A DNA stretch of 37,063 nucleotides from Elusimicrobiaceae bacterium (GTDB taxonomy: Bacteria > Elusimicrobiota > Elusimicrobia > Elusimicrobiales > Elusimicrobiaceae), in assembly GCA_017520185.1 (NCBI GenBank), contig JAFXGO010000018.1, forward strand, positions 1-37,063, written 5' to 3'. The notes below the pieces were generated by a model. The model saw only the letters and a program-made list of their open reading frames with translations, did no database searches and was not told the origin of the DNA. How positions within the stretch are numbered: position 1 is the first letter of the stretch; each line of letters begins with the position of its first letter. Below, one piece after another: positions 27,180-37,063 of the stretch. A program made the translations under genes and the position numbers.

Positions 27180-27214
27180 AAATCCCCGTCGGAAGTTAAT
27201 TCTAACGGGGATTT
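27180..27214 (-). terminator. Hairpin downstream of the tRNA-Ser duplication
   Basis: A 10-bp stem (AAATCCCCGT/ACGGGGATTT) with a 15-nt loop lies just beyond the partial tRNA-Ser copy. On the minus strand only TTTAAAT follows, so its strength as an intrinsic terminator is doubtful. The bases 27059-27179 between it and the hydrolase gene hold nothing else recognisable. Confidence 0.45.
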
Positions 27215-27237
27215 ATGCTATAAACTCAAAACTAAAA

Positions 27238-27256
27238 TACGGAAAGGGAGGGATTC
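27238..27256 (-). repeat. Partial duplicate of the tRNA-Ser 3' end
   Basis: These 19 bases are identical to 27437-27455, the 3' end of tRNA-Ser (T-arm distal strand plus acceptor strand and two flanking bases). The copies are 199 bp apart in direct orientation. The rest of the tRNA is not present at this copy. Together with 27310-27353 it defines a ~200-bp unit between the partial and the intact tRNA end. Confidence 0.85.
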
Positions 27257-27436
27257 TCCTTCCGGTAAAATTTCTGACGAAATTTTCCTGCAGGCCGGGC
27301 TCGCGGTATTCGCCTTTGCCTTCAGCAAAACTCATACAATGCTCCGCCTTTCGAAACCCTACGCAACGCAAAGCAGTTTGCGTTGCTCCATACCTTAATA
27401 TAATTAAAAAGTCCCACAAGGGGACTATTTAAATTA
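27257..27436. repeat. tRNA-associated ~200-bp unit, copy 1 (tRNA-Ser)
   Basis: This is the segment between the two tRNA-Ser 3' ends. It contains a ~20-nt box at 27310-27329 (CTTTGCCTTCAGCAAA core), a second box at 27343-27353 (TCCGCCTTTCG) and a perfect 10-bp hairpin at 27363-27386 (GCAACGCAAA/TTTGCGTTGC, GCAG loop). Both boxes recur in the unit beside tRNA-Glu (36736-36755 and 36814-36826). A short frame on the minus strand crosses the unit but has no ribosome-binding site and runs into the tRNA fragment, so I do not call it a gene. Confidence 0.65.
27410..27426 (-). terminator. Terminator of tRNA-Ser
   Basis: On the minus strand AGTCCC/GGGACT with a 5-nt loop is followed by TTTTAATT, 12 nt beyond the tRNA 3' end. 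Confidence 0.8.
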
Positions 27437-27438
27437 TA

Positions 27439-27525
27439 CGGAAAGGGAGGGATTCGAACCCTCGGTAGAGTTGCCCCTACATCAGTTTTCAAGACTGACG
27501 CCTTAAACCACTCGGCCACCTTTCC
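27439..27525 (-). tRNA. tRNA-Ser (anticodon UGA)
   Basis: The minus strand folds as a class II tRNA. The acceptor stem is GGAAAGG/CCTTTCC with discriminator G (27439). A D-arm (GGCCGAGTGGTTTAAGGC), an anticodon stem-loop CAGT-CTTGAAA-ACTG with UGA, a long variable arm (TAGGGGCAACTCTA) and a T-arm with GGTTCGAATCC follow. CCA is not encoded. It lies about 55 nt after the GT-C glycosyltransferase gene. TTGGCA and TAAAAT-like hexamers in the gap could be its promoter, but their spacing is ambiguous. Confidence 0.96.
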
Positions 27526-27581
27526 ATTACTTCTATTTTACTATTTTAAAACATCTTTTTGCCAACAGACAATTAAAACTC

Positions 27582-36052: not shown

Positions 36053-36577
36053 ATGAACTTAATATCACCGCAAGAACATAACTCACCATCCCCCCTCTCT
36101 CAAACGGCTGTTTTTGCCGGTGGGTGCTTTTGGGGCGTAGAACACCTGATGAAAGAAGTAAAGGGCGTTTTGGCTACGCAATGTGGATATACCGGCGGAG
36201 ATTTATCTAATCCTTTATATGAAGACGTATGCACCGGCCAAACAGGACATTTTGAAGCGGTGCGTATTGTTTTTGACCCTCAAATAGTCTCTTATGAAGA
36301 TTTAGCCAAATTGTTTTTTGAAATTCATGACCCTACTCAGACCAATGGGCAAGGGCCCGATATCGGACAACAGTATTATTCTGCCGTCTTTTATAGCAAT
36401 GAAGAACAAAAACAAACTATTGAAAAATTGGTAAGTATTTTAAAAAATAAAGGATACCGAGTGGCTACACAACTATTACCGCTAAAGATCTTTTGGCCGG
36501 CAGAAGATTACCATCAGCAATATTATCAAAAAAAAGGCACACAACCTTACTGCCATCAAAGAATTAAAAAATTTTAA
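36053..36577 (+). CDS. msrA: Peptide methionine sulfoxide reductase MsrA
   Basis: MsrA repairs S-methionine sulfoxide. The catalytic motif GGCFWG (C25) follows a short N-terminal extension. GYTGG and HFEAVRI and the end region PAEDYHQQYY are typical. GAGGA lies 9 nt before the ATG. It is the last gene of the plus-strand operon and is followed 4 nt later by a strong terminator. No MsrB domain is fused. Confidence 0.96.
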   Translation: MNLISPQEHNSPSPLSQTAVFAGGCFWGVEHLMKEVKGVLATQCGYTGGDLSNPLYEDVCTGQTGHFEAVRIVFDPQIVSYEDLAKLFFEIHDPTQTNGQGPDIGQQYYSAVFYSNEEQKQTIEKLVSILKNKGYRVATQLLPLKIFWPAEDYHQQYYQKKGTQPYCHQRIKKF

Positions 36578-36581
36578 TGCG

Positions 36582-36614
36582 AAAAAGACTCTTTAAAAAT
36601 AAAAGAGTCTTTTT
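36582..36614 (+). terminator. Terminator of the plus-strand operon
   Basis: A 13-bp stem (AAAAAGACTCTTT/AAAGAGTCTTTTT) with a 7-nt loop is followed by further T residues, directly after msrA. Confidence 0.88.
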
Positions 36615-36680
36615 TAATTTTTCTAAACCACGTCTCTTTACTGGATTAATTCTCTATAGAGATGCGTTCCAAAAACCAAA

Positions 36681-36733
36681 CAAAAAACCCGTCTGCTTTT
36701 GGCAAACGGGTTTCAAATGGCGCCCTCTAGGAC
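36681..36733 (-). repeat. Duplicate of the tRNA-Glu 3' end plus terminator (outer copy)
   Basis: These 53 bases match 36889-36941 with two substitutions at most, around the terminator-tRNA junction (TTTCAAATGG against TTTTAAATGG). They include the last 14 bases of the tRNA-Glu gene, the encoded CCA and the full intrinsic terminator hairpin (AAACCCGT/ACGGGTTT at 36685-36713). The two copies are 208 bp apart in direct orientation. The rest of the tRNA is missing here. Confidence 0.88.
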
Positions 36734-36888
36734 TATCGTCTTTGCCTCCAGCAAATCCGGCAAAACCATTTTGCGCGACTTCGCGCAATACTGCTTTTGG
36801 TTTTGCTCTTTATTCCGCCTCTTTCGCTTACGCTCTCTCGCGGGTTAGGAGTTCGATTCTTTCCTAGAGATCACGCTACTATGAAAAA
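36734..36888. repeat. tRNA-associated ~200-bp unit, copy 2 (tRNA-Glu)
   Basis: This segment lies between the two tRNA-Glu 3' ends. It contains the ~20-nt box at 36736-36755 and the second box at 36814-36826 that also occur beside tRNA-Ser. A nested hairpin lies between them (outer stem GCAAAACC/GGTTTTGC, inner stem TTGCGCG/CGCGCAA). At 36847-36869 is an inverted, imperfect copy of the tRNA-Glu T-arm and acceptor strand (AGGAGTTCGATTCT then CCTAGAG). Two short frames cross it but have no ribosome-binding site, so no gene is called in 36578-36925. Confidence 0.65.
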
Positions 36889-36892
36889 CAAA

Positions 36893-36921
36893 AAACCCGT
36901 CTGCTTTTGGCAAACGGGTTT
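36893..36921 (-). terminator. Terminator of the tRNA-Lys/tRNA-Glu transcript
   Basis: On the minus strand AAACCCGT/ACGGGTTT with an inner GC-containing loop continues into TTTTTTGTTTTT, 5 nt after the tRNA-Glu CCA. An almost identical hairpin is at 36685-36713. Confidence 0.88.
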
Positions 36922-36925
36922 TAAA

Positions 36926-37000
36926 TGGCGCCCTCTAGGAGAATCGAACTCCTCTTTTCGGATTGAAAATCCGACGTCCTAACCGATAGACGAAGAGGGC
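36926..37000 (-). tRNA. tRNA-Glu (anticodon UUC)
   Basis: The acceptor stem is GCCCTCT/AGAGGGC with discriminator G. The anticodon arm is TCGGA-TTTTCAA-TCCGA with UUC, and the T-arm is GGAGTTCGATTCTCC. CCA is encoded (36926-36928), unlike in tRNA-Ser. It lies 14 nt downstream of tRNA-Lys and is probably co-transcribed with it. Confidence 0.96.
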
Positions 37001-37014
37001 AAAAATTTTAATTA

Positions 37015-37063
37015 TGCGCCCGGTGAGACTTGAACTCACGGCCCCCCGCTTAAAAGGCGGATG
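37015..37063 (-). tRNA. tRNA-Lys (anticodon UUU), 3' part only
   Basis: The window edge cuts the gene. Visible are the anticodon loop CTTTTAA (UUU), the variable region, the T-arm GTGAG-TTCAAGT-CTCAC and the 3' acceptor strand CGGGCGC with discriminator A (37015). CCA is not encoded. The 5' half lies beyond 37063. Confidence 0.93.

Follow-up and report, generated by a model that had tools for sequence, protein, structure and literature searches.

A tRNA-linked repeat behind tRNA-Glu in an Elusimicrobiaceae bacterium, with relatives behind many tRNA genes

Why should a tRNA gene be followed, some 200 bp on, by a second copy of its own 3' end and terminator? The question arises near one end of the window, by which we mean the whole 37,063-nucleotide stretch of DNA analysed, one contig of the 1.4-Mb genome of an Elusimicrobiaceae bacterium (GCA_017520185.1; G000). 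The resident tRNA-Glu(TTC), intact at 36926-37000 according to ARAGORN and Rfam, is on the minus strand, so that the duplicated "downstream" part lies at lower coordinates. Read in the direction of the tRNA, and all on the minus strand, there follow upon the tRNA end a terminator hairpin T1 (36893-36922), an inverted copy of the T-arm and acceptor, a set of hairpins, a direct copy of the tRNA end including the CCA (36718-36738), and a second terminator copy, T2 (36684-36713); T1, T2 and the direct copy were located by repeat search. The direct repeat runs for 61 nt at 95% identity (36678-36738 and 36886-36946, 208 from start to start), which bears out the near-perfect repeat of tRNA end, CCA and terminator described in the first-pass annotation. 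The second end copy agrees with the tRNA at 19 of 21 nt, with two mismatches in the T stem (CGATAGTCC for CGATTCTCC); its last 14 nt are exact, and it is exact across the acceptor, the CCA and the terminator hairpin.

The inverted copy has two boxes. Box 2, at 36848-36859 (GAATCGAACTCC), copies the T-arm and was found by repeat search within an inverted repeat of 14 fully complementary nt (36847-36860 and 36940-36953); box 1, at 36863-36872 (GATCTCTAGG), is by sequence reading a decayed copy of the acceptor 3' strand, and three variable nucleotides (36860-36862) stand between them. The inverted T-arm/acceptor copy that had been pointed out earlier is thus present and reaches to 36872. Beyond it, covariation defines helix P4 with a nested hairpin (GCAAAACCA ... 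TGGTTTTGC; 36760-36806) and helix P5 (TTTGCTGGAGGCAAA; 36741-36755). The nested hairpins, also noted before, are upheld by folding: for 36681-36941 z is -6.9 as RNA and -7.0 as DNA, and none of 200 shuffles was equally stable. The whole element, which we call type-E, occupies 36719-36876 (match to covariance model R1, E 1.4e-12). An assembly artefact or a chance repeat was considered and is excluded, as the unit is present in other species; in one of these, G024, it recurs at 99% identity (positions 119-504 of the BLAST query) while the neighbouring genes are 75% identical.

How widespread is this arrangement? We compared 36560-37063 by BLAST with 66 genomes of the same genus and inspected the sequence behind the tRNA. 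Several species share the plan behind tRNA-Glu, frequently with a partial further unit. The covariance model R1, built from five type-E elements, matches at E ≤ 0.1 in 17 of the 66 genomes, with one copy in each except for two in tandem in G055; the expectation that relatives would vary in carrying the unit was right, by BLAST and by model. Across the phylum 18 of 340 genomes have an R1 match, the eighteenth being marginal (E 0.057). A tRNA-Glu precedes the element on the same contig in 15 of the 17; the contig of the G029 tRNA-Glu breaks inside the unit, whose remainder is on a second contig, and the G017 contig stops short of the tRNA. Remnants of type-E occur in G005 and G003. Over the 17 aligned elements, 92.6% of the cells of the 47 pairs are paired and 18 pairs show double changes, against at most 48.9% pairing in slid controls, counts that are biased towards the model because five of the 17 rows built it. 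On the tRNA-sense strand, pairs of the G.T kind outnumber A.C pairs, 25 to 12. The gene content behind tRNA-Glu (L138-L195) differs by species, often with an msrA-like gene and otherwise with other genes.

A second model, R2, comprises the central hairpins alone. One weak extra match of R2, in G032, proved to be an equivalent build behind a serine-type tRNA end, with three units in a row, and it led to a related multicopy type, type-S, in which an extra hairpin, H1 (loop CTGC), lies between the halves of the inverted arm. Among 20 regions with weak R2 matches away from tRNA-Glu, all scanned for tRNAs, three had a tRNA context (L287, L297 and L302); the matches L286 and L288-L293 were rejected as elements, since they looked coding or like A/T-rich chance matches. 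The window itself holds a second tRNA-linked repeat, of type-S, at 27181-27526, also on the minus strand. Behind tRNA-Ser(TGA) (27438-27526, ARAGORN) come a terminator hairpin (27404-27432), H1 (..AAACTGCTTT..; 27363-27386), an inverted copy of the tRNA-Ser T-arm (GGGTTTCGAA; 27350-27359, by arm scoring), a direct copy of the tRNA-Ser 3' end, 16 nt exact (AATCCCTCCCTTTCCG; 27240-27255), and a second terminator hairpin (27181-27213). The features for which no other source is named were read from the sequence; the element from H1 to core, 27256-27387, matches the type-S model R3 at E 9.1e-31.

Type-S elements are numerous. R3 finds 4 matches in the genome of the window, besides its one type-E element, 25 in G004, 15 in G011, 10 in G061 and 16 in G005, and in the phylum it finds type-S in at least 110 of 340 genomes and at least 21 of 100 genera, lower bounds set by stricter filters. 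For the 30 best type-S loci, a few of which share tandem arrays, a tRNA gene lies within 300 nt upstream on the same strand in 27. Some loci have tandem copies, or one and a half units. In 68 distinct rows 96.6% of the cells are paired and 26 of 33 pairs are doubly changed, where slid controls reach at most 51.2%. The tRNA-sense strand has 110 G.T pairs, 71 of them from one invariant T.G position and 39 from others, versus 9 A.C pairs. This asymmetry favours a fold of the tRNA-sense strand, as would occur in RNA, with the qualification that the rows are related and that the models score G.U pairs. H1 varies quickly and yet is Watson-Crick in 662 of 670 cells, with G.T in 2 of 670.

Could such units be no more than local tandem duplications, made by slippage or unequal crossing over and homogenised by gene conversion, with neither function nor spread? 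The two terminators of a unit, like the tRNA ends, are nearly identical within most genomes and different between genomes, and second copies are partial, all of which a local origin would give. It would explain neither the homology of cores among many genomes and many different tRNAs, nor the covarying helices, nor the wobble pairs distributed asymmetrically between the strands. The shared core largely refutes the idea, and we consider it very unlikely. The terminators of G015 are a case of their own: they are unlike each other, and the sister G003 has the first and the sister G031 the second. Such a pattern would follow from recombination between the direct copies with loss of one part or the other, or from insertion of the unit at a tRNA end.

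About 20 tRNA types have this build behind them, the ends matching in each case the tRNA concerned, and the loci examined are nearly all at tRNA 3' ends and carry local tRNA sequence. How closely do the copies follow the local tRNA? Behind tRNA-Glu, a clade with acceptor GCCTTC/GAAGGC and no CCA has the change mirrored in both the inverted arm and the end copy. The CCA is absent from tRNA and end copy alike in G045, and G036 has CCC in both. For type-S we held out 37 loci that had no part in R3; 17 belong to other genera of the family. A tRNA was detected upstream of 31 of the 37, at a median distance of 46 nt; 27 loci, with 15 tRNA types, were scored, leaving aside 6 without a detected tRNA and 4 without the exact H1 motif. 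The total match to the locus's own tRNA averaged 22.2 of 29, against 16.9 (sd 0.45) when tRNAs were permuted, and none of 10,000 permutations was as high. Taken singly, the inverted acceptor arm (4.67 of 7 versus 3.81), the inverted T-arm (8.11 of 10 versus 6.48) and the direct end (9.41 of 12 versus 6.56) each had a mean that none of the 10,000 permutations reached. The direct end was complete, at 12 of 12 nt, in 8 of the 27 loci, and several end copies were truncated. The first set had given much the same picture, 22.5 of 29 for own and 16.5 for foreign tRNAs, in 25 scored loci of 13 types, some of them used for R3; 25 of the 27 loci with a tRNA were scored there, two without the H1 motif being left out. 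Both sets together cover 19 anticodon types besides Glu. When the nine loci without a detected tRNA were re-read (three in the first set, six in the second), an end copy was seen 54-68 nt upstream in four, so that some loci are separated from their tRNA or stand behind one that ARAGORN missed.

Matching of this kind invites another reading, in which the unit is a vertically inherited, cis-acting RNA that governs how its own tRNA matures, perhaps by pairing with the T-arm, and that has been lost repeatedly without ever moving. Complementarity of the arms to the local tRNA extends to T-loop bases (AACTCC) for which the end copy offers no partner, and changes in the acceptor are compensated; both speak for such a regulator. 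Vertical descent, on the other hand, fits poorly with the rpoB tree, on which type-E presence is patchy among sister species, and with a Spearman correlation of 0.08 between type-E core identity and rpoB identity (78 non-independent pairs). The type-E cores of the window's genome and G024 are 100% identical over 113 columns, in a setting where the downstream genes are 75% identical (5,038 bp) and the upstream genes 83-93%. Near-identical cores are also found at different tRNAs: in G011, cores up to 97.8% identical lie behind tRNA-Cys and tRNA-Ser, with different arms. We therefore regard a purely vertical regulator as improbable. As a separate observation, two sisters at 95% rpoB identity differ at the tRNA gene itself, G005 (L148) having tRNA-Glu GCCCTC with CCA and G025 (L185/L248) GCCTTC without it; the difference suggests that the end of the tRNA gene was replaced through recombination.

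What of integration? The first-pass annotation had likened the outcome to integration at a tRNA gene on a very small scale. The likeness in outcome stands: the intact gene has a restored tRNA end and terminator next to it, and a duplicate of both lies downstream. It does not extend to the agent: no integrase is encoded in or beside the unit, in which no gene fits. Integrative elements and islands at tRNA 3' ends likewise restore the tRNA end and leave a downstream duplicate, whereas the present unit is geneless, about 200 bp long, has ends tailored to many tRNAs and an inverted arm, and lacks an integrase. One could still picture a minimal, attP-like element mobilised by an integrase in the manner of a MITE, with the inverted and direct tRNA ends as recombinase core sites and the folded strand as attachment site; folded attachment sites are known from integron cassettes and CTX-type phages. 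The unit does sit exactly at the T-arm/acceptor end of the tRNA, duplicates that end, occurs in tandem and is variably present, and the folded type-E unit has its boxes paired and the spacer between them unpaired. That spacer, though, may also be a 24-nt hairpin, and the ends change with the tRNA, of which about 20 types are involved, as no single recombinase site would do. Five carriers (G029, G032, G044, G045 and G055) have only two Phage_integrase matches each, probably XerC and XerD; a recombinase of another family, or one encoded in missing sequence, might yet serve. Nor was any copy of the element found in the plasmid, phage and viral collections, where the plasmid matches shown covered the tRNA part alone. 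Because the ends differ from tRNA to tRNA and those five carriers have so few candidates, integrase-driven integration becomes less likely; its classical form is only partly supported, and we hold mobilisation of an attP-like unit to be unlikely.

Two other candidates were rejected. One is the scar of a large island: among the matches listed, in 57 of 66 genomes, the end CGATTCTCCTAGARGGC occurs only at tRNA-Glu or 146-216 bp behind it, the few others being at contig ends. The other takes the inverted arm for a tRNA primer-binding site, but the CCA end is not where this arm begins.

To what known kind of sequence, then, does the element belong? The tRNA-linked repeats (TLRs) of E. coli have reportedly been known since 1978, through work by Egan and Landy in 1978, by Rudd in 1999, and by Bosl and Kersten. 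They include the RtT repeats of tyrT and tyrV, lysV, argQZYV, and RrA, RrB and RrF in the rrn operons. Like the present element they lie directly behind a tRNA or rRNA gene, their last 18-19 bp repeat the end of the upstream gene, and they come in one to several tandem copies, some of them between two terminators; in the tyrT/V, lysV and argV units, as here, the closing part is an inverted piece of the tRNA end. The window's units lie directly downstream of their tRNAs (36719-36876 for Glu, 27256-27387 for Ser), have end identities comparable to the 18-19 bp of TLRs, and belong to a set with one to several copies per locus and several loci per genome. Since an equivalent build stands at about 20 tRNA types, with ends matching each, we group the element with TLRs and not with islands or scars, an assignment that is well supported. 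It differs in coming from another phylum, with a core that aligns weakly, and in its type-S form, with the extra H1 splitting the inverted arm and as many as 25 model matches in one genome. Palindromic repeats of bacteria, REP/BIME among them, are also small, structured, dispersed and non-coding; the present units, unlike those, stand at tRNA 3' ends and carry local tRNA sequence. A limited literature search found no earlier report of TLRs in Elusimicrobiota.

We examined 38 tRNA and 5S genes in nine regions of E. coli K-12. A near-exact copy of the 18-nt end lies downstream of six, argQ, argZ, argV, lysV, tyrV and tyrT. An inverted tRNA-end word inside the unit is better than shuffled sequence for tyrV (GGGGAAGGAT, P 0.003), lysV (GATTCGAAC, 0.007) and argV (GGGAGGAT, 0.017), is borderline for tyrT (P 0.05), and is no better than chance for argQ and argZ (P 0.87). 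In the folded tyrV unit the inverted word and the end copy come together to close a stem. Is there common sequence as well? The three best R2 matches in the tyrT locus are the three RtT units, at E 0.011-0.015 (best 0.011 for 1,901 bases), and words of 12 or 13 nt are common to the present element and E. coli TLRs at shuffle P 0.002-0.008; homology with the E. coli TLRs is possible on these figures, and unproven. The RtT RNA family of Rfam is likewise a folded, tandem unit behind tRNA-Tyr with the tRNA 3' end. In an Rfam search of the present element the tRNA alone matched at the gathering threshold, and no other family reached its threshold even at lax E-values. Of 5,426 E. coli genomes 4,680 have a match, with RtT at 1 to 9 places in each, and "RtT sRNA" is a RefSeq annotation at the E. 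coli locus.

TLRs are described as without known function in PMC8144298, which also gives RrA, RrB and RrF of E. coli as expressed and as binding Hfq and CsrA, and the RrB 3' end as lying 3 nt past the repeated sequence, with RNase E proposed. Those are expressed RNAs, whereas the Elusimicrobiota units are known here from sequence. The same paper gives an 18-bp repeat overlapping the 5S end for rrfB; our K-12 regions hold no 18-nt end copy for rrfB at one mismatch, the probe being the annotated gene end and an overlapping repeat being outside its reach. We noticed no mention in the passages of PMC8144298 consulted of the inverted tRNA-end pieces of lysV (L408) and argV (L407). For the rtT RNA of Salmonella, a 175-bp variable-number change is listed in PMC2658671.

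What evolutionary and molecular steps might account for these elements? In build they are non-coding sequences of about 150-200 bp, set between a tRNA gene and a second copy of its 3' end, usually flanked by terminators, and they show conserved structure, covarying helices and arms and end copies that match the local tRNA at many tRNA types. We think it rather likely that a TLR is two things: a structured RNA encoded between two terminators as the 3' trailer of a tRNA, and a non-autonomous repeat that spreads between tRNA genes, its arms coming to match each tRNA. RNA function, mobility and the rewriting of arms are inferred. The RNA would arise by read-through of T1; its inverted arm would pair with the end copy and so close the fold, and trimming would take place at the tRNA-like end. 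Spread from one tRNA gene to another might be aided by the T-arm sequence that tRNAs have in common, and also by DNA passing between species. Once an element had landed, its arms would be converted to the sequence of the new tRNA. The likeliest routes are template switching and gene conversion between the inverted copy and the direct one, with the shared T-arm sequence as the nucleating point; template switching would be the most economical process. Tandem units would be gained and lost by recombination between direct repeats. The near-identical G011 cores with different arms suggest that matching arises faster than cores diverge.

Several points count against the trailer-and-spread account. 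One would think that T1 should halt most transcription ahead of the unit. In the window's own type-E member box 1 is decayed and the end copy mutated, and end copies are truncated in several elements. No mobilising protein was identified, and homologous recombination of the ordinary sort, anchored in conserved tRNAs, can also account for what species share. The sequence likeness to E. coli TLRs is weak. Finally, H1 has almost no G.T pairs, and such near-pure Watson-Crick pairing could also be produced by correction of a hairpin at the DNA level.

The TLR kind itself is known from E. coli, though poorly understood; what is new is the size of the family and the finding that an inverted arm matching the tRNA is general to it. 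Comparisons for which E. coli did not suffice become possible with a second phylum, where copies are many and about 20 tRNA types are involved. The family displays conserved covarying structure, an inverted arm that tracks the local tRNA, and natural instances of gain, of loss and of tandem arrays. With such data two questions become testable. What RNA do TLRs make? How does the repeat come to match the local tRNA? A more speculative suggestion, which we offer tentatively, is that TLRs form a class of RNA elements, selfish or semi-domesticated, that extends across phyla; its members would move from one tRNA gene to another and on landing rewrite their inverted and direct arms to match the new tRNA, as a tRNA-tailored bacterial counterpart of SINE-like elements, possibly copied via RNA or by template switching in replication.

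Two minor observations may be added. At L345 (G000:C9:31446-31594 with flanks), L394 and L401, type-S follows a bare tRNA end or unrelated sequence, with no tRNA detected, as if another insertion at the tRNA had displaced the old end together with its repeat. And the last 118 bases of the window, with tRNA-Glu and tRNA-Lys, recur exactly at the start of contig C19 of the same genome, so that C19 and the window's contig, C18, probably adjoin.
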